Shown one piece after another: positions 4,699 to 27,285 of a stretch of 27,451 bases of DNA; position 1 is the first letter of the stretch; each line of letters opens with the position of its first letter. Location of the stretch: the IMG/VR virus record IMGVR_UViG_3300042549_003177, positions 1-27,451 of that record. One strand, 5' to 3'. The notes under the pieces were generated by a model. The model saw nothing but the letters and a program-made list of their open reading frames with translations. It had not been told where the DNA came from and searched no databases. The stretch is from a virus. A program made the translations under genes and the position numbers.

Positions 4699-7209
4699 TC
4701 ACCCACCAGTAAATGTTGCAGCTCTACTCGTTCTTCTATCTAATGCCTGTTGTGATGAAACATCACCACTAACTACATAAGCACGAACAGGTTTTTGTGC
4801 TGCACCTAGGGTTTCACCTATTTGTTGTGTAGGATTCATACCACCAGTTGTATTTATTTGGGGTGCTGCTGCTCCTGCAACTCTTGGTGCAGATATTTGA
4901 GCACCTCCACCTCCAGCACTACCTGCATTTGATGCGGGAGCTCCTGGTTGTGAATTGATTTGTTGTACGGATTTAGCTGCTGCAGCAATTGTAGATGCAA
5001 TACTTAATCCTGCTGATATAGTATTGATTGCAACAAATGGCATACCTCCAACTAATGGAAGTGCTGCTACTGCTTTTGCATTTGCTATTGCAGTATTTGC
5101 AATGATTTGTCCGATTGCAGCTGCCTGTTGAATGATAATACCACTAATTGCAAGTGCTTTATTCTTACCTGCTATCTGTCCTAACAAACTACCGAATTGT
5201 TCAAACAAACCTAAATAAGCAAGATTGATTTCCTGTTTAGCCATCATTGCTGCTCTTTCAGTAGCAACTTCTTCATCAGTTATAGCTTTTCTAGCATCTG
5301 CGTATTTTTTAGTAATTTCAGTTTTTTGAAATTCAGTAAGTTCCGTATTTTGTAATTCAATCGCTTCTTGCTCTGCAAGTATAGTTCTTTGTTCTGCTAA
5401 TCGTTCTAAATCTTGCTGAAAATCAAAGTCAGATAATTGGTTTTCTCTATCTAAATCTTCTAATCTTTGTTGTAAGGATGTAAGTGCAATACTTCTTTCT
5501 TCTTCAGCATTTAACTTCTTTTGTTCAATTGAGAATTTTTCTAATTCTATTTGAGCTGAAATAAACTCTTTATTCTTTTGTAATGCAGCAACTTCTATTT
5601 CATTTTTCTTATTAGTATAATCTTCTAATGTTAATAAACCACTAGAATACTTATCACTTAAATCTTTCTGTTCTTTTTGTAAAGTTTGATTAGTAAGTAA
5701 TTCATTTTGTATTGCAGCATTCTTACGAATCTCAAATAATTTATTCTGAAATTCCTTCTCACCTATCTCACCTTTTACAAGTCTTAAATTTAGAAATTGT
5801 TCTTCTAATGATAACGAATCGTCTATTACTCTTTTTCTTGCCTCTAATAATTCCTTTGCATCTTTTTCAGCATTATCTTTCTGTTGTTTTGCAAATTTAC
5901 TTACAATTTCAGAGTTTTCTTTTTCTCGTGATTGTTCTAATAATGTAGTATCTTGTTTGTATTTTTTAGCCGAAGCTATTAACTTATCGTATTTTATTTT
6001 TACTTGCTCTAATTCTCTTGCTTCATCACCTAAAAGGGATAATCTAGCTTCTTCTTGTGCTTTTTTAATTTCATCTAATGCTGCAGCAACTGCTTTTGTA
6101 GTATCTTCAAAGTTAGGTGGTGTTTCTAATCCTTTCTTTAATTTCTTATCATTCTCAATTGCCAGTTGAGTTAGTTTATCACCTTCTTTAGCAAATACAT
6201 CTACATTTTTATTTGTTTCTTGTAAATTTTTAACATAAGTTTCAGTTTGTCTATTATAAAATTGTAATAATTGTCCTCCTGATTGAATATAATCACCAAC
6301 ACTTTGCCAGAATGTAGGTTCAACACCTTCACCACTTACTGCTTTTGCTGCAGCTTCTGCAGATTTCGCGTAGAATACATTTGCTTGAGTTCGTAGTTTA
6401 ATACCCTCTACAACTACTGCAGTATTCTCTGCTAACAATTGTTCTGCCTCTTCTAATGAACCTGCAAATCCAACCGTTTTACCTAATGTATCGTTATATA
6501 ATTTAAGAGCATCCTTTTTAGAAATAGTTCCTGTTCTCGCTGCTTCAAATGAGTTTTCAACCTCAATCAATTTTTTATTGAAATCAGTTAACCCTTCTGT
6601 TACTTTAGATTGTGCTTCTTCGTATGTTTTAGATTCAGCAGTTGCGCCTTTGATAGCATCAACTACTTTATCCCAATTGGCAATCAATAATCCTAAACCA
6701 ACTACTAATGCACCAATACCAGTTGCAGTTAGAGCTGCTGCAAATGCTTTAGCACCTGCTGCTGCGGCAGTTTCACCTATACCAACTGCAACGAATGATT
6801 TTGCTAAAGCAGTATTAAGAACGGTATATACTTTTGTAATACCCGTTAAATTAAAGAATCCTTTTGCAATATCAGTTAAATCATTACCTAATTCTACAAA
6901 AGATGCCTGAATATTAGTAAATTGTACTGCAGAGAATTGTTTTAAAGTAGATAAAGTACCTCCTAACTGCCCACCGATAGCACCGATAGGACCAGGTAAT
7001 GCACCCAATACATCTGCAAAGTTACCAGCACCTGCTCTTGCAGCAACTAATGAATCCTGAACATCATCAATCTGTCTTTGGAGTGCAATGAACTCTTCAG
7101 AACCAGCTGCTGTTTCTTTTAATTGTTTTTTAAGAGCACGAAGAGCAGCTAATGATGGTTCTACATCAGTTTCAACATCAACTTTTACTTTTACTGTTTT
7201 ATCTGCCAT
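4699..7209 (-). CDS. Tape measure protein
   Basis: At 836 residues this is the only protein in the window with the tape measure layout. The N-terminus has a short strand and helix (VKVKVDVETDVEPSL). A first Ala/Gly-rich hydrophobic region lies at about 135-185 (GIGALVVGLGLLIANW). Long charged coiled coils follow from about 370 to 650. A second hydrophobic region is at about 655-745 (ISGIIIQQAAAIGQIIANTA), and the C-terminus is flexible and Gly/Ala/Ser-rich. Tape measures set tail length and help DNA entry. By the usual relation of about 1.5 Å per residue, the tail would be near 125 nm. The start overlaps the upstream small gene by 19 bases. Confidence 0.88.
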   Translation of the reverse strand: MADKTVKVKVDVETDVEPSLAALRALKKQLKETAAGSEEFIALQRQIDDVQDSLVAARAGAGNFADVLGALPGPIGAIGGQLGGTLSTLKQFSAVQFTNIQASFVELGNDLTDIAKGFFNLTGITKVYTVLNTALAKSFVAVGIGETAAAAGAKAFAAALTATGIGALVVGLGLLIANWDKVVDAIKGATAESKTYEEAQSKVTEGLTDFNKKLIEVENSFEAARTGTISKKDALKLYNDTLGKTVGFAGSLEEAEQLLAENTAVVVEGIKLRTQANVFYAKSAEAAAKAVSGEGVEPTFWQSVGDYIQSGGQLLQFYNRQTETYVKNLQETNKNVDVFAKEGDKLTQLAIENDKKLKKGLETPPNFEDTTKAVAAALDEIKKAQEEARLSLLGDEARELEQVKIKYDKLIASAKKYKQDTTLLEQSREKENSEIVSKFAKQQKDNAEKDAKELLEARKRVIDDSLSLEEQFLNLRLVKGEIGEKEFQNKLFEIRKNAAIQNELLTNQTLQKEQKDLSDKYSSGLLTLEDYTNKKNEIEVAALQKNKEFISAQIELEKFSIEQKKLNAEEERSIALTSLQQRLEDLDRENQLSDFDFQQDLERLAEQRTILAEQEAIELQNTELTEFQKTEITKKYADARKAITDEEVATERAAMMAKQEINLAYLGLFEQFGSLLGQIAGKNKALAISGIIIQQAAAIGQIIANTAIANAKAVAALPLVGGMPFVAINTISAGLSIASTIAAAAKSVQQINSQPGAPASNAGSAGGGGAQISAPRVAGAAAPQINTTGGMNPTQQIGETLGAAQKPVRAYVVSGDVSSQQALDRRTSRAATFTGG

Positions 7210-11933: not shown

Positions 11934-14900
11934 TTAGTAAGGATTTACAATCATATACATTACAGATATATTTCCACCATATCCACCATTTGATAAACTA
12001 AAACTACCATTTGTAATATTTGATACAACTGGAGAATAATTACCAACTGTTGTATCATTTGTTGCAAATATATAAGAATCAGCAGTTACTAAACTATTAC
12101 TAACAATTAACCCACCACTACCAACTGTTACTTTGTTTGTTGGTTTATCAGTTCCTCTGCCCATTTTAATATCATTGGCTGCAGATAAACTACCAGATAC
12201 TACAAAATTGTTTTCAGTTGTCCATGTACTTCCAGAATATTGTAATTCTACATTACCATTACCATCTGAAAGAATGATATTATTATTTAATATCTGTCCT
12301 CCACCACTATATCCACCTATGATTATTGTACCATCTCCATAATGGTCATTACCTGCATTTGGCCCTATGTAAACATTTCTACTGCCTGATACATTTCTGA
12401 ATCCAGCATCATTACCAATTGCGGTATTTAGATTACCAGTTTTATTATTATTTAATGCACCTACACCAATTGCCACATTTTGGTTACCCGTTGTGTTACT
12501 TGCTAATGTTTCTGCTCCAATTGCAAAGTTATTACTACCAGTTGTTATTCCTAATGCATTTGCACCTATGGCGACACATTGTGTTGAGCCACTTGTGTAT
12601 CTCATTGCACCTGCTCCAATTGCAACATTACTTGTAACATTACCTGTTATATTAGTCATTGCATTACTACCTAATATAACATTAGAAGTATTTCCGCTTT
12701 TATTTACAAATGTAGTATCACCTTGTATAGTTACTGAACCTGATACGGTTAAAGAACCTGTGATTACTGCATTTCCTGTGAATGGGAATGTTGAACCACC
12801 GAATGATGATGTTGCAACCGTAGTTGTTCTACCTGATGCGTTACCTACTAATACATGTCCTTGTTGTAAAGAAGCAGTTAAAGTGTTTTGTATCCTTAAG
12901 GAGCCAGAGATTACTGATGTTATACTACTTCTACCAATAGTGATTGAATCAACTGTTGTTACTACTGAAGCAGCAGTGCCTGTTCCACCAATTTCTATAA
13001 TTTGACCACTTAATACTGCTTTTACTTTTTGGTTTCCGTTATCAAAAACTCCTATAACACCTTGTCTAGTTCCACCTGCTGCACTACCTGATGCTACAGC
13101 AAGGAATTGTGCTGTTTCACCATTTACCAAGGCCTCACCACCAAAATTGTAGCCTGAAGAATCCCATGCCTCAATTACAAATGCATTCTTATATGCATCA
13201 CTACCAAAATCATAATTTTGAACTCCAATAGTTTGTTGATTAAATGGAACACCATTTACAGTAGCACCTTTTACAACAACTAAATCAGTTTGGTTTCCAA
13301 GAGTAGGTGCATTAAATGTTTGTTTTGCAGAACCCGATACATCTACTGAACCAGTAATAGTTTGATTTCCTCTAAATGTGTTTGAGCCTGTAATTGCAAA
13401 TCCTAATTCTGTTATTTGTGATGAGCCTGATATTGTTCCAGCAGGTGCTGAACCAGATGCAGCAACTGTCAAATCAAATGTTGAACCATCTCCTTTGGTA
13501 AAGGTTAATACATTTACTGCAACACTACCAGTCACCATAAGTGAGCCAGTATTAACTGAACCTCCACCTCCACCAAATGATGAAGTTGCTACTGTAGTTG
13601 TTCTACCACTCGAATTACCTACCCATACATATCCTTCTTGTAAGGATGAAGTTAGGTTTCCACTAATACCTAATGAGCCAGTAAGTTGCGTTTCACCTAT
13701 TACGGTTAATTCAACTGCGTTTGATGAAGAAAGTATTAAACTACCTGTTATAGTTTGGTTACCTATAACTCGCAATCCATTCGAACCTGATATGATAGTA
13801 GAACCAGTAATCTGATTACTCAAAGATGATAATTGAAGATATGGTAATGCGTTATGTCCAATTAGTATGAAATCAGTAGTTGCTGCTGGTAAGGCACCAA
13901 TGTTGATTATACTTGCATATTGGTTTAAGAATGAACCCGTACCTAATTGTCTCAATTGGCTTATAGCATATCCCTTTCCACCAAATGAATTACCTGAACC
14001 TGATGCTAATAGTTCTGAACCCGTCCTTATACCATTATGGAAAAAACCAGCTCCAAAAGCATATCCTGATGAATAATAATCAAATGCAAATGCATCCTTT
14101 AAGTTATCACCACTCGAAGGATAATCTTGTAATCCAAATGTTACATTAGTATATGATTTGCCATCTATTACCGAACCTGTTACTACAATAATATCCTTTT
14201 GTGATTCAGTTCCAGCTGCTCCTACATTTATTGTTGTTAACCCATTTATGATTTGGTTACCATTGAATGTGTTTGAGCCTGTAGTTGCAAATGAACCTGT
14301 GTTTATTGTACTTCCTGCAAAAGAAGATGTTGCTACAGTTGTAGTTTTACCATTTACATCACCAACCCACACATATCCTTGTTGTAGTGATGATGTAAAT
14401 GTTCCAGTTGTAGATAATGAACCAGTTAATCCCAATCCATTCGAACCTGATATTATTGTATTACCTATAATACTAACTCCAGTTCCTGCTGCTGATAAGT
14501 TTAATCCATTAGATGCATTTATATTTGTTTTACCTCCTGCAATTGAATAATTTATTATATCTAAATCTACGCTTGTAACACCATTAAACGGTGAATGAAT
14601 ATATACATCATTTGGTGTAGTTCCAAATCCAATTTTATTTGCACCCGCTATATTTTGTTGCCCATTAAATGTATTACTACCAGTAGTTGCAAAACTTCCT
14701 GTATTTATAGTGCTTCCACTAACATCTGGTATAATTACACCAAATGTGGTTGCATCTCCCTTTGTAAAAGTTAATGTATTTCCACTAAAAGATGCAGTAG
14801 TTAAACCTAAACTTGCAGATGTAAATAAACTAGCAGTTGCAGAGTTTATATTATTTACTGAAGTATTTAAACTTGCAGTAGTTGATTCTATATTATTTAA

Positions 14901-17705
14901 TCTTACATTAGTCGAAGATGTATATGAATTGAAAGATGCGGTAGATACAAACGATGCAGTAGTTATTTCAGTTGGTTGATTGTTTGCCCCACCTACCCAA
15001 AGTTTTCCACTATCTAAACCTGGTAATTGTGCAGGACCTGGATTTAATACCAATCCTTTTCCACCACTACCACCTTTAGTTACTACTCCTAATAATTGAG
15101 TAACTGAATTACTTCCTGATGGTAAACTAGCTGACCAACCTCCACCTTCTGCTACATATATTGATTGTCCTGCTACATAGCCAGTTAAATCAATTCCTTC
15201 GATTAAACCTAATACGATTGCATTTGTAGTGTTTGCTGCACCAATAGTTTCGTTTGATACAAATGTTACTGGCATCTTATTAGGGTCTGCCGCATCTGCT
15301 TTGAATACTATTGGGTTAGCACCTTGTGAACCACTAATATATAATGGGTCACCTTTTGTTATATTCTCACCTGTATATACTACTTCAAAAATTGTAGTTG
15401 CTGCACTACCTGTATCAACACTTACACTAAATGTAGATGCATTACCTTTTGTAAAAGTAATTGTGTTTCCACTTGCTGATGCAGTTATCAAAGAACTTGC
15501 AGTGATTGCTGAAGTTACATAAGATGAAGTTGCTCCATTTAAAGCGTTTATAGATGTTTGTGCACTTTGTGTGAACGTATTTATATTGTTTACAGATGTG
15601 AACAAACTTGCAGTTGCAGAGTTTACATTTGTAATCGATGTATTAACACTTGCACTGTTTGTATTCAACGCATCAATACTAATCTGTTGAGATGCCGAAC
15701 TTGCATTCAAATTAGTTACCGAAGTATTAAGTGATGCAGTAGTTGTATTTAAATTCGATATAGAGGTGTTTAAGCTCTGCGTCGTGGAGTTTAAATTACT
15801 TATTGATATGTTTACACTCGCAGAATTAGATTCCAATGAATCAACTCTTTGGTTGTTAGATGAAGTATATGCGTTGAAAGATGCAGTAGTTACTAATCCA
15901 CTAATATCAACTGATGATGTTAATACAGGTGTTCCATTAACTGTCAAACTACCTTGCACTTTAACACTACCAGAAAGAGTTTGCACATCACTCAACTCGT
16001 CACCAAACTGATTAGAACCAGAAGAATAGATTACAGATGAACTTTCAAATATCGTTTGTAAGTAAGTAAATGATGCAGAAAATGCAGTTATGTTACCTGT
16101 AATAATTTGGTTACCAATAAAGTTGTTACTACCCGTTGTTGCGTATGAACCAGTTTTATCTTGTAAACTATCTATCTCACCTGCCAATAGTATATTTACA
16201 CCTTCTTGCGATTGTGTAAATGTATTCAATGCATCAATACTAATCTGTTGAGATGCAGAACTTGCATTCAAATTAGTTACTGAAGTATTAAGTGATGCAG
16301 TTGTAGAATTAATATTACTTATAGATACTAATGCTGATGCACTAAAAGTATTTAAGTTATTTATAGAAGTTACTAATGATGCAGTAGATTGTGATGCAGT
16401 AAATGTATTTAATGCACTTATAGATGTATTAACACTAGCACTATTTGTATTTAATGCATTTATACTAATCTGTTGAGAAGCAGAACTTGCATTTAAATTA
16501 GAAATTGATATTAATGTAGATGCACTAAACAATTCTAAATTTTGTGTTTCAATTAATAAACTTGCAGTTGTTGTGTTTAAGTTATTAATTGATATCTGTT
16601 GAGATGCTGAACTTGCATTCAATTGAGATATAGATGAATCCGTAGATGCAGTGAATGCATTGAATGAAGATGTAGTTACAAAGTTACCTGCTGAACCACT
16701 CACATCAGGTATATTAACTGCAAAGGTTGTATTATTACCTTTAGTAAAAGTTAAGTTTCTATTTCCATTATCAAAAGAAGCAGTGATTAAAAACGAACCA
16801 CTCTCTGTTTCAGTTACATAAGATGAAGTTGCTGCATTTAAAGAATTAATACTAACTTGTTGAGATGCTGAACTTGCATTCAAATTAGAAATTGATATTA
16901 ATGCCGATGCACTAAATGTTTCTAAATTTTGTGTTTCAATTAATAAACTTGCAGTAGTACTTTCAATATTAGTTAATCTATTTAATGTAGATGCACTAAA
17001 AGTATTTAAGTTATTTATAGAAGTTACTAATGATGCAGTAGATTGTGAAGCAGTGAATGTATTTAATGCATTTATACTAACTTGTTGAGAAGCAGAACTT
17101 GCATTCAAATTAGAAATAGAAATTAATGCAGATGCACTAAATATTTCTAAATTTTGTGTTTCAATTAATAAACTTGCCGTTGCAGAGTTTATATTTGTAA
17201 TAGATGTATTAACACTAGCACTATTTGTATTTAAATTACTTATTGATACTAATGCTGATGCACTAAAAGTATTTAAGTTATTTATAGAAGTTACTAATGA
17301 TGCAGTAGATTGTGAAGCAGTGAATGTATTTAATGCAGATATAGATGTATTTACGCTAGCACTATTTACTTCTAAAGAACTTACTCTTTGGTTATTAGAT
17401 GAAGTATATGAATTAAACGAAGAAGTTGTTACTAAACTACCTGTATTGATATTAGCCACTAAAGATGATGTTGCAAATGCAGATGTTTTTCCACTTGCAT
17501 TACCTACATAGATGTATCCTTGTTGTAATGATGCAGTTAAACTTCCTGATAAGAATAAATCTCCTGCAGTATTAACTGAAACACCAATAGGATTACCAAA
17601 ACCATCTTCTAATCCAATCAGATTAGCACTAGCTGTATTATCAGTAGCTAAATGAATTATCGATTGAAAACTTCTTGATACATAAAGGTTACTTAAATTA
17701 CCCAT
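11934..17705 (-). CDS. Giant repeat-rich fibre protein with coiled coils and YadA-like repeats
   Basis: A 1923-residue Ser/Thr/Asn-rich protein, the largest gene here. After a short N-terminal region (1-60), residues about 90-600 and 620-750 consist of 14-residue units of the form LNxxSASxxxSIxN, as expected of a trimeric coiled coil. Four modules of the type SLQQGYxxVGxxxGRT with a following ATSSF lie near residues 58-82, 1100, 1350 and 1610. At about 1670-1800 there are roughly eight Asn-Val-Ala-Ile-Gly units of the YadA head beta-roll type. The C-terminus ends in MYMIVNPY, with no S74 chaperone-peptidase visible. It is likely a long tail or side fibre for host attachment. Near-identical internal DNA repeats suggest recombination. 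Confidence 0.85.
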   Translation of the reverse strand: MGNLSNLYVSRSFQSIIHLATDNTASANLIGLEDGFGNPIGVSVNTAGDLFLSGSLTASLQQGYIYVGNASGKTSAFATSSLVANINTGSLVTTSSFNSYTSSNNQRVSSLEVNSASVNTSISALNTFTASQSTASLVTSINNLNTFSASALVSISNLNTNSASVNTSITNINSATASLLIETQNLEIFSASALISISNLNASSASQQVSINALNTFTASQSTASLVTSINNLNTFSASTLNRLTNIESTTASLLIETQNLETFSASALISISNLNASSASQQVSINSLNAATSSYVTETESGSFLITASFDNGNRNLTFTKGNNTTFAVNIPDVSGSAGNFVTTSSFNAFTASTDSSISQLNASSASQQISINNLNTTTASLLIETQNLELFSASTLISISNLNASSASQQISINALNTNSASVNTSISALNTFTASQSTASLVTSINNLNTFSASALVSISNINSTTASLNTSVTNLNASSASQQISIDALNTFTQSQEGVNILLAGEIDSLQDKTGSYATTGSNNFIGNQIITGNITAFSASFTYLQTIFESSSVIYSSGSNQFGDELSDVQTLSGSVKVQGSLTVNGTPVLTSSVDISGLVTTASFNAYTSSNNQRVDSLESNSASVNISISNLNSTTQSLNTSISNLNTTTASLNTSVTNLNASSASQQISIDALNTNSASVNTSITNVNSATASLFTSVNNINTFTQSAQTSINALNGATSSYVTSAITASSLITASASGNTITFTKGNASTFSVSVDTGSAATTIFEVVYTGENITKGDPLYISGSQGANPIVFKADAADPNKMPVTFVSNETIGAANTTNAIVLGLIEGIDLTGYVAGQSIYVAEGGGWSASLPSGSNSVTQLLGVVTKGGSGGKGLVLNPGPAQLPGLDSGKLWVGGANNQPTEITTASFVSTASFNSYTSSTNVRLNNIESTTASLNTSVNNINSATASLFTSASLGLTTASFSGNTLTFTKGDATTFGVIIPDVSGSTINTGSFATTGSNTFNGQQNIAGANKIGFGTTPNDVYIHSPFNGVTSVDLDIINYSIAGGKTNINASNGLNLSAAGTGVSIIGNTIISGSNGLGLTGSLSTTGTFTSSLQQGYVWVGDVNGKTTTVATSSFAGSTINTGSFATTGSNTFNGNQIINGLTTINVGAAGTESQKDIIVVTGSVIDGKSYTNVTFGLQDYPSSGDNLKDAFAFDYYSSGYAFGAGFFHNGIRTGSELLASGSGNSFGGKGYAISQLRQLGTGSFLNQYASIINIGALPAATTDFILIGHNALPYLQLSSLSNQITGSTIISGSNGLRVIGNQTITGSLILSSSNAVELTVIGETQLTGSLGISGNLTSSLQEGYVWVGNSSGRTTTVATSSFGGGGGSVNTGSLMVTGSVAVNVLTFTKGDGSTFDLTVAASGSAPAGTISGSSQITELGFAITGSNTFRGNQTITGSVDVSGSAKQTFNAPTLGNQTDLVVVKGATVNGVPFNQQTIGVQNYDFGSDAYKNAFVIEAWDSSGYNFGGEALVNGETAQFLAVASGSAAGGTRQGVIGVFDNGNQKVKAVLSGQIIEIGGTGTAASVVTTVDSITIGRSSITSVISGSLRIQNTLTASLQQGHVLVGNASGRTTTVATSSFGGSTFPFTGNAVITGSLTVSGSVTIQGDTTFVNKSGNTSNVILGSNAMTNITGNVTSNVAIGAGAMRYTSGSTQCVAIGANALGITTGSNNFAIGAETLASNTTGNQNVAIGVGALNNNKTGNLNTAIGNDAGFRNVSGSRNVYIGPNAGNDHYGDGTIIIGGYSGGGQILNNNIILSDGNGNVELQYSGSTWTTENNFVVSGSLSAANDIKMGRGTDKPTNKVTVGSGGLIVSNSLVTADSYIFATNDTTVGNYSPVVSNITNGSFSLSNGGYGGNISVMYMIVNPY
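15661..15740 (-). repeat. 80-base repeat within the fibre gene, copy 1
   Basis: This segment matches 16222-16301 with three mismatches by hand alignment. Each encodes coiled-coil units containing LNASSASQQISIDALNT. The mismatches appear to be silent third-position changes, which implies selection on the protein. Confidence 0.75.
16222..16301 (-). repeat. 80-base repeat within the fibre gene, copy 2
   Basis: Partner of the repeat at 15661-15740, in the same orientation and codon phase, 561 bases apart. That spacing is a multiple of three, so recombination between the copies would keep the reading frame. Confidence 0.75.
16336..16416 (-). repeat. 81-base repeat within the fibre gene, copy A
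   Basis: This 81-base unit (27 codons, encoding LNTFTASQSTASLVTSINNL and the next seven residues) differs from copies B and C by two bases in my alignment. Copy A and copy C share further similarity on the high-coordinate-free side (lower coordinates), with ATA/ATTGATACTAATGCT just before the unit. Confidence 0.8.
16990..17070 (-). repeat. 81-base repeat within the fibre gene, copy B
   Basis: Identical over all 81 bases to copy C at 17257-17337. It lies 654 bases from copy A and 267 bases from copy C, both multiples of three, so exchange between copies would delete or duplicate coiled-coil length in frame. Confidence 0.82.
17257..17337 (-). repeat. 81-base repeat within the fibre gene, copy C
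   Basis: Identical over all 81 bases to copy B. Absence of even silent changes between B and C suggests a recent duplication or gene conversion inside the fibre gene, unlike the surrounding units, which differ more. Confidence 0.82.
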
Positions 17706-20522: not shown

Positions 20523-20554
20523 ACAAAAAAAACCCCTACATTTCTGTAAGGGTT
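20523..20554 (-). terminator. Intrinsic terminator after the tail-tube-like gene
   Basis: On the minus strand a ten-pair stem with one mismatch (arms 20531-20540 and 20545-20554, loop 20541-20544) is followed by eight consecutive T, then G and four further T. It lies 22 bases downstream of the stop at 20577, inside the otherwise gene-free 115-base gap. It probably ends or reduces transcription after the capsid and tail tube genes, so the portal and following genes must be reached by read-through or a promoter in the gap. Confidence 0.85.
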
Positions 20555-25195: not shown

Positions 25196-25507
25196 TTACT
25201 TCTTAATTGTTTTAATCATTTCATTATGTACTAGAGTTTCTAATTGTACTTTATCTGCTTTATATGCTAAATATAATAAACACTTCTCCAATGGTTCTTC
25301 TACTACTTTATCGATTTTAAGGATATCCCCTTCTGCCAATTCAATAATGGTTGCATAATTTGACCACTTCTTGCCAAAATTTGCTTGATGTTGAGAGGAA
25401 GCTCCTCCTCCTTCAAAGAGTTCAGGGTAAAATTCAGTAAGTCTATTTGTAAATTTAATAAAAAAAAAAGTGCTCCAAAGTGTACATCCATAGGGACATC
25501 TAACCAC
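25196..25507 (-). CDS. -1 frame extension of a probable frameshift gene pair
   Basis: This frame is open for 103 codons, but its own ATG at 25507 lies inside the preceding gene and the first 16 codons look spurious. From the ten-T run on it reads as genuine protein: IKFTNRLTEFYPELFEGGG, FGKKWSNY, IIELAEGDILKIDKVV, LLYLAYKADKVQLE. My hand count of third positions gives about 12 of 43 G/C here against 22 of 41 in the other frame over the same DNA, and the first value fits an AT-rich genome. I therefore infer expression as the C-terminal 87 residues of a 255-residue fusion made by -1 slippage at 25459-25470. An assembly error in the T-run would look the same. Confidence 0.6.
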   Translation of the reverse strand: MVRCPYGCTLWSTFFFIKFTNRLTEFYPELFEGGGASSQHQANFGKKWSNYATIIELAEGDILKIDKVVEEPLEKCLLYLAYKADKVQLETLVHNEMIKTIKK

Positions 25508-25962
25508 TTTTGGAAATCCACATCTCCTCTGTATGTTTCGATTGAATACATATCACCTTTTTTATGTTTAACTGGTCTATATAAGATATTCATTATCTTT
25601 GCCCAATTATCATCCATCTCTATTGTTTTGAATTTAGTAATATCAGAATACGCACCATAAGTCATATTAGATAAGTTTGGTTCAAACCCGTATTCTATAC
25701 CATCTATAGTTACAAATCGTTTAAGAGGCAAATCTACATTACCTAAAAAGTTATTTAAGTCCTGTGATATTGTATTATATACATCGATAGGTAATGATTT
25801 AAGATACTTAACATCTAATCCACAAAGATGATTTAGCATAACTACACCAACTGCTTCATCATTATCTCTGTAGTTATTTATATCACTTTGTAATGCTAAC
25901 CACTTCCTTAAACTGATATCTCCGTATGAAGTAGGTATTTTAATTTCTATTTCCTTTACCAT
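25303..25962 (-). CDS. Zero-frame partner of the frameshift pair, tail-chaperone-like
   Basis: A 219-residue protein with helices and aromatic-rich turns: EIKIPTSYGDISLRKWLALQ at 5-24, HLCGLDVKYL at about 45-54, VTIDGIEYGFEPNLSNMTYG at about 84-103, KIMNILYRPVKHKKGDMYSI at 121-140, then MDVHFGALFFLLN at the T-run (about 157-169). The last 50 residues, after the T-run, are in a frame with unlike codon use and probably are not the conserved part. Pairs of this kind recall the gpG/gpGT chaperones that load the tape measure, but this pair sits far from the tape measure and matches no G/GT sequence I know. Its start overlaps the upstream small gene by seven bases. Confidence 0.7.
   Translation of the reverse strand: MVKEIEIKIPTSYGDISLRKWLALQSDINNYRDNDEAVGVVMLNHLCGLDVKYLKSLPIDVYNTISQDLNNFLGNVDLPLKRFVTIDGIEYGFEPNLSNMTYGAYSDITKFKTIEMDDNWAKIMNILYRPVKHKKGDMYSIETYRGDVDFQKWLDVPMDVHFGALFFLLNLQIDLLNFTLNSLKEEELPLNIKQILARSGQIMQPLLNWQKGISLKSIK
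25459..25470 (-). promoter_or_regulatory. Candidate -1 ribosomal frameshift slippery site
   Basis: In the zero frame the minus strand reads CTT TTT TTT TTA, giving a ten-T run and the canonical heptamer T TTT TTA. A -1 slip continues with ATT AAA TTT and the conserved-looking downstream frame. No clear hairpin lies within the usual 5-9 bases; a GGAGGAG-rich potential stem appears only about 50 bases on, which weakens the case. Homopolymer runs of this length are also prone to indels and sequencing error. Confidence 0.55.
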
Positions 25963-26150
25963 ATAGTGTTTTGTTTTAATAATAATAATAACTTCTTTAC
26001 TTTAGCTTCTTCGTTATCTAATTTAGCTTGCATTAATATAATACCTGCACGAAGGTCTTCGTTTGTTTGTTGTAACTCTTTTGCATATAAGATTAAATCC
26101 CTAATCTCTTCAGCATTCCATACCTGTTCTTTATCTAAAACTAATGACAT
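25956..26150 (-). CDS. Small coiled-coil protein after the large terminase
   Basis: A 64-residue, almost wholly helical protein. Residues 12-60 are a continuous amphipathic helix with heptad-like leucines (IRDLILYAKELQQTNEDLRA, then a Lys-Leu-Leu run). It overlaps the terminase gene end by 20 bases and the next gene by seven, so all three are translationally linked. A coiled coil of this size could dimerise and act as an assembly factor or terminase accessory. I do not recognise the family and no catalytic motif is visible. Confidence 0.65.
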   Translation of the reverse strand: MSLVLDKEQVWNAEEIRDLILYAKELQQTNEDLRAGIILMQAKLDNEEAKVKKLLLLLKQNTIW

Positions 26151-27285
26151 ATTTTCCTTTGGTTTGTGCCTTTTGTGTTAACTTCATCATTGCAACGTAC
26201 CTAGCAGCATCCAATAAGTGGTCCATCCCACCTTCGGGTGTATCTGTTACATATCCGTACTTATCTGTTGCATATTGATACGCATACATCTCATTAATAA
26301 GATTTTGTGATTTCTTATGTATATGTATCTTATGGTTCTGTAGTACTGATATACCAAACTTAATCGAATCAGGTCCTTTCTTTACAGGCTTTGCATTGAA
26401 TCCCATTCTGTATAATTCTTCTATACTTCTCGGTTCACTACTATCACACCATATCTCTTCTTGCTTTGTAATATCTAATTTGTTTAATCTATCTCCTATA
26501 TCTTTCAGAACTAATCCCTTCTCATATAGTATCTCTTCCAAATAAAGATTATCACCATTCTTATATACTGCTACTACTGCAGTAGGGTCTTGTGAATATC
26601 CCCAGTCCAATCCGAATCCAACAAACTCCGCTTCGTAATCTTCTACTATCTCAAAGTTGTATATTGCTTTATCATTTGGAGCAAACTCACCTTTACCATA
26701 TATCTTCCAATACTTTGGATTCTTTACTTCCAAATCCTCAATTGCGGTTACCATCTCTTTTGGTAGATATGGGTTATCCTTATATGTGGTAACAAACCTA
26801 TCACAATCCTGCATCTGTCTTAACCAATGGTATGGTGATATAGTGGGGTTGTATGCAAGTATAATCTTACCTGATGTTCTGATTGATAATTGGAAATAGG
26901 ATTCTTCATCTAATTCAGATGCTTCATCTACAAATAGTATATCTGATTTTAATCCTCTTAACTTTTCAGGGTCGTCTGAATTTACAAACTGAATAACCGA
27001 ATCACCCAACTTATATATCCTATCAGTAATGTTCCAATTATCTTCTCTCCATATATCTAAACCTTTCAATATATCGGTGAAATCTTTGATTATGGTCCTC
27101 TTTAGTGATGGAATGGTTCTTCGTACCACCGTAATAGTTTGCGTTGATTCTAGCCCCCTTACAATGAGAAATTGGAGTATTCCGTAACTCTTCCCACTAC
27201 GAGTACCACCTATGTGTTGTGAAACTCTTTTAGTAGATTCTAATAAGTGTTCAAAAGTGATTGATGTATTAATCTCTAGATTCAC
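26131..27285 (-). CDS. terL: Terminase large subunit
   Basis: A 384-residue packaging motor with both expected activities. The ATPase domain has the Walker A motif GGTRSGKS at 26-33, the Walker B run ILFVDE at 116-121, and a coupling-type segment LAYNP at 143-147. The RNase H-like nuclease domain has D227 in GLDWGYSQDPTA, D281 in WCDSSEP and D355 in GGMDHLLDAARY, plausible metal ligands. Size and motif order fit the Terminase_3 (PBSX/XtmB-like) group. The start is GTG at 27285, inside the terminal codons of the small terminase gene (17-base overlap), so translation is probably coupled. The protein translocates DNA into procapsids through the portal and cuts the concatemer. Confidence 0.93.
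   Translation of the reverse strand: MNLEINTSITFEHLLESTKRVSQHIGGTRSGKSYGILQFLIVRGLESTQTITVVRRTIPSLKRTIIKDFTDILKGLDIWREDNWNITDRIYKLGDSVIQFVNSDDPEKLRGLKSDILFVDEASELDEESYFQLSIRTSGKIILAYNPTISPYHWLRQMQDCDRFVTTYKDNPYLPKEMVTAIEDLEVKNPKYWKIYGKGEFAPNDKAIYNFEIVEDYEAEFVGFGLDWGYSQDPTAVVAVYKNGDNLYLEEILYEKGLVLKDIGDRLNKLDITKQEEIWCDSSEPRSIEELYRMGFNAKPVKKGPDSIKFGISVLQNHKIHIHKKSQNLINEMYAYQYATDKYGYVTDTPEGGMDHLLDAARYVAMMKLTQKAQTKGKYVISFR

Follow-up and report, generated by a model that had tools for sequence, protein, structure and literature searches.

Tail assembly chaperones are needed for the assembly of phage tails, bind the tape measure and tube proteins and are absent from virions, and the frameshifting by which they are made, as in lambda gpG/gpGT, is the standard phage example of recoding by the ribosome. 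A ribosomal −1 shift requires only an in-frame T TTT TTN heptamer, and its stimulators, a downstream structure or an upstream Shine-Dalgarno-like motif, are common without being universal. Transcriptional slippage at A9 or T9 has been described in bacteria for Shigella mxiE, Thermus dnaX and IS elements (PMC1088944, PMC5009743). In many bacteria, selection against slippage becomes apparent once a run reaches nine A or T (PMC1088944), and one-base insertions predominate at homopolymers (PMC5574713). Both elements, the programmed frameshift in tail chaperones and slippage of the polymerase at T9, are already known; we found no paper joining the two in the literature searched, which covered few subscription journals, and in the same literature no report of slippage at T9 by a Flavobacteriia RNA polymerase.

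The locus described here lies on the minus strand of the window, i.e. the whole 27,451-base stretch of viral DNA that was analysed (Table 1). Its 219-codon zero-frame ORF contains ten T in the context GCA CTT TTT TTT TTA TTA (the complement of A10), the sole homopolymer of at least nine bases in the window, while the −1 frame opens before this run and continues to its own stop. The first-pass annotation had proposed that the two frames overlap at the ten T and that a −1 slip would make a product of 255 residues, and reading of the window bears out both the overlap and the computed length of the fusion. Its hand count of third-position G+C (22/41 in the zero frame and 12/43 in the −1 frame) points in the same direction as our count over the 52-codon overlap (25/52 and 12/52, respectively). 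Two other features of the window were recorded. A T8 on the coding (minus) strand at 20525–20532 sits in the gap between two ORFs and is possibly part of a terminator, and an ORF of 1923 amino acids at 11934–17705 has a coiled-coil-like stretch (DUF16, 2.2e-13) without an informative phage family match.

Table 1. Features of the locus in window coordinates (feature; coordinates; strand; supporting match or observation)
Zero-frame ORF, 219 aa (ATG at 25962, stop at 25303): common N-terminal part, which ends near residue 166, followed by the zero-frame tail	25303..25962	−	phrog_32199 at 3e-16
T10, candidate slippage run, CTT TTT TTT TTA in the zero frame	25460..25469	−	T9–T11 in 169/169 distinct sites
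−1 frame extension, ~88 codons (stop at 25196), four predicted helices	25196..25459	−	phrog_38404
Putative dual-coded overlap, in which the zero-frame tail and the −1 extension would both be translated	25303..25459	−	zero-frame tail open and conserved above expectation in relatives
Terminase large subunit (terL), upstream neighbour in most relatives	26131..27285	−	PF04466 2e-21
Probable tape measure protein, ~18 kb downstream of the gene	4699..7209	−	phrog_24676 2.2e-06

Viral contigs were scanned with both halves of the protein and then with divergent relatives, giving a related set of 279 loci and records. Among the first 150 of these loci, 144 had both halves, in every case in the same −1 relation. 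Counted over all usable loci, 169 distinct sites carried an uninterrupted run of nine (130 sites), ten (38) or eleven T (one) and never a shorter one, with the −1 frame open past the run at every site. Its first T falls on codon position 1 in 62 of these sites, on position 2 in 97 and on position 3 in 10. Four loci yielded no run in this count: three end before the site, and the fourth has an indel earlier in the gene with its T9 still there. Every identity cluster (90, 36, 13 and 8 clusters at 90, 60, 50 and 40%, respectively) had a T run of at least nine, and a rapidly built tree of 159 joined proteins, some of whose branches are long, requires at least 12 changes of codon phase and at least 15 of phase or length, with the length never below nine. 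The arrangement of the window was also seen in three loci of only 27% identity to it.

The relatives include Nonlabens phages P12024S and P12024L. Cellular genomes gave no match to the alignment of the close family; a scan with the distant-family alignment gave five cellular contigs with exactly T9, the sole T run of at least nine in each locus. One of the five is from the isolate Galbibacter pacificus CAA-3, in which the T9 gene (locus NZ_JAQSVC010000002.1, 465636–478271) lies in a large contig, apparently within a prophage. The named hosts of the relatives are mostly Flavobacteriia, with one contig binned as Epsilonproteobacteria, and it is from these hosts that we infer the host of the window itself. 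The base before the run is G or C in 81/81 close relatives and A in several distant ones, and the Leu codon preceding the run in the close family is CTG, TTG or CTC, never TTA, though TTA makes up 51% of Leu codons. The gene for gp10 of Flavobacterium phage 6H (L280, 10352–10927), whose product resembles the zero-frame protein in structure at 12% identity, was searched for a T9 and has none, so that the T9 rule is limited to the present family as far as the data go. This gp10 gene is followed, in a different frame, by an open stretch that has no annotation.

These comparisons bear on whether the two frames are joined by design. The first-pass annotation had named an indel in the homopolymer as its main alternative, and homopolymers are indeed error-prone and hypermutable (PMC1088944), which speaks for an assembly or sequencing error, a pseudogene or phase variation by replication slippage. 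However, the −1 relation was the same in all 144 first loci with both halves, the isolate genome agrees, both frames are under selection as described below, and run length was identical within each of the 56 groups of loci that share identical 60-nt flanks (162 loci). The conserved run and relation, together with the constant length at identical flanks, rule out an indel artefact and make phase variation unlikely, leaving this family of explanations scarcely credible. Two separate proteins, the downstream one translated from its own start codon, would be suggested by the annotation of the −1 part as a separate 55-aa ORF in Nonlabens phage P12024S and by a GTG at 25507 in the −1 frame of the window. 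By contrast, in 74 of the 169 sites the stretch between the opening of the −1 frame and 30 codons past the run is free of ATG, GTG and TTG, indicating that no separately started gene exists at those sites; ATG occurs over that stretch in only 38/169, and separate initiation would leave the conserved T run unexplained, making it very improbable. Indel or pseudogene, phase variation and separate initiation were accordingly rejected by the comparison of relatives. Neither homologues with one continuous frame nor homologues that lack the run and have separate starts appeared among the 169 distinct sites, all of which have the conserved run. With the −1 relation and at least nine T at every distinct site, the proposal of a programmed joining of two frames is strongly supported, and programmed recoding at the T run is, judged by this comparison, nearly certain.

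Selection on the two C-terminal tails was then assessed. Past the run, the zero frame stays open for a mean of 48.5 codons as against the 6.0 expected from the −1 protein and codon usage (p < 0.05 in 78/81), with 16 zero-frame stops seen within the overlap versus ~140 under synonymous shuffling. Zero-frame identity within the overlap was 0.478 compared with 0.350 after shuffling, and since identity past the zero-frame stop was also raised (0.389 versus 0.335), part of this excess identity comes from common ancestry. The −1 extension has a mean column identity of 61% in the close family. By these measures both tails are under protein selection, and because the zero-frame tail is far more open and conserved than expected, the 219-aa and 255-aa forms are probably both functional.

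Given recoding, the slip could be made by the ribosome or by the RNA polymerase. The first-pass annotation had proposed a ribosomal shift at T TTT TTA, and the longer run would then be kept by Phe or for slip efficiency. The heptamer is there: an in-frame T TTT TTN occurs at every examined site, and because either T TTT TTT or T TTT TTN lies in frame within any T9, a ribosomal shift is compatible with every site. Moreover, when synonymous codons were drawn with the amino acids fixed and the heptamer forced, ~70% of draws reached nine T, which makes the length of the run weaker evidence at any single site than it might seem; tail chaperone shifts are also classically ribosomal (PMC5009743). By contrast, the run never falls below nine although seven would suffice, and it occurs in all three phases with at least 12 changes between them. 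This homopolymer of at least nine irrespective of codon phase is what transcriptional slippage calls for. Folding z-scores near zero gave no RNA structure up- or downstream of the run, none of 110 distinct upstream stretches had AGGAG (Shine-Dalgarno-like motifs in 16/110), and no alternative heptamer type was found to accompany the site. Thus, the heptamer itself stood up, but the kept feature is at least nine T in any phase, a known polymerase threshold, without a translational stimulator, and the ribosomal reading fits less well. The lack of structure, Shine-Dalgarno motif or other heptamer at the site likewise favours slippage by the polymerase, whose predominant one-base insertions would reach the −1 frame, as needed here. 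Ribosomes of Bacteroidia lack recognition of the Shine-Dalgarno sequence (PMC9976891).

Long A and T runs were also counted in a comparison set of 716 other genes of the related loci. Neither A10 nor T10 occurred, against 15 and 3 expected, respectively; A9 and T9 stood at ~0.25 of expectation and A7 at 0.79. T7 and T8 were depleted as well, which counts against a polymerase-specific reading of this avoidance. In-frame T7 heptamers numbered 27 (0.53 of expectation) and were avoided no more than out-of-frame ones; such tolerance of the in-frame heptamer in other genes argues against a ribosomal shift at the site. One other ORF among the 716 genes (L182:1299–1646) has an uninterrupted T9 (GATTGTTTTTTTTTGATGAT, codon position 1), which may be a second slippage site or a chance run. 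Taken together, these sequence comparisons lead us to rate transcriptional slippage (+1 U), given recoding, as likelier than a ribosomal shift by about 65:35. The slip would then probably be made by the polymerase and not by the ribosome, and programmed ribosomal frameshifting is left as a tentative, less probable explanation.

As to the identity of the protein, Phage_TAC_7 (PF10109; tail assembly chaperones E, 41 or 14) was matched by 13 of 36 joined homologues with a best E of 0.0013, below cut-off (16.2 bits for an example member against a curated cut-off of 25), phrog_166 (tail protein) by 16 of the 36 with a best value of 5e-5, and phrog_3140 (tail assembly chaperone) by three. The distant family gave no match to tail assembly chaperone families, and a search of NCBIfam gave nothing relevant. 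Structures of the zero-frame form and of the extension were predicted separately. The zero-frame model (pLDDT 80.6) matches viral models, one of them annotated as a tail assembly chaperone (E 7e-3), and the extension is modelled as four helices (pLDDT 73.6). Solved structures searched by sequence and by fold gave nothing usable, and matches from VIA were mostly to the C-terminal helices. A BFVD entry of 258 aa (A0A516L611) matches the N-terminal part and, weakly, the extension, and may be either an in-frame fusion or a join made in annotation. In 247 of 275 loci, the same strand has a match to terL upstream, at a median distance of 207 nt; the gene adjoins terL, instead of lying directly upstream of the tape measure gene as tail assembly chaperone genes do, and the odd position remarked on in the first-pass annotation is therefore real and conserved. 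Its comparison with tail chaperones is plausible by the family matches, although these fall below curated cut-offs. A probable tail assembly chaperone is thus the best reading of the weak family matches and models.

We therefore propose the following model. Most transcripts would copy the T run faithfully and yield the 219-aa form. In a fraction of them, the polymerase would slip back on the all rU:dA hybrid within the T9–T10 run, adding one U (or losing two), and normally translating ribosomes would enter the −1 frame of the altered transcript to make the 255-aa form. The two proteins would have their N-terminus in common and differ in their C-termini. We also infer an isoform ratio and a chaperone function, the pair most likely being tail assembly chaperones made in a set ratio in the manner of lambda gpG/gpGT. 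We put the probability that polymerase slippage makes the two-protein output, with the pair likely acting like gpG/gpGT, at roughly 0.6. The wider claim, that a large group of tailed phages of Bacteroidota sets its chaperone isoform ratio by polymerase slippage at a conserved T9–T10, with a selected second frame across the overlap, seems to us about an even bet. If true, phage assembly would be a further case, after dnaX, in which recoding by the polymerase and by the ribosome can stand in for each other, and polymerase slippage would suit hosts in which Shine-Dalgarno sequences are not read by the ribosome. The gene pair can be located and joined in annotation by a rule of at least nine T in the gene next to terL, and the 169 natural sites represent a ready set for learning which homopolymer lengths slip in Flavobacteriia.

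Compared with the programmed −1 ribosomal frameshift of lambda gpG/gpGT, the present locus is alike in its two predicted isoforms, which would begin with the same N-terminal part and of which the longer continues in the −1 frame, and in the weak sequence and structure matches of its protein to tail assembly chaperones. It differs in having an unbroken T9–T10 in place of a varied heptamer, with no stimulators found, in lying beside terL and away from the tape measure gene, and in a conserved zero-frame tail of ~50 codons that overlaps the extension. With slippage in mxiE, dnaX and IS elements it shares a homopolymer of at least nine, two overlapping ORFs and a codon phase and RNA structure that are not needed, and its direction suits a one-base insertion; by contrast, here the gene is a phage structural-assembly gene and slippage is a candidate mechanism. 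A further described counterpart is the orthologous pair adjoining terL in Nonlabens phage P12024S (ORFs 38 and 39) and P12024L, which has T9 at the junction and the same −1 relation, but is annotated as two hypothetical proteins and has a zero-frame tail of only ~25 codons.
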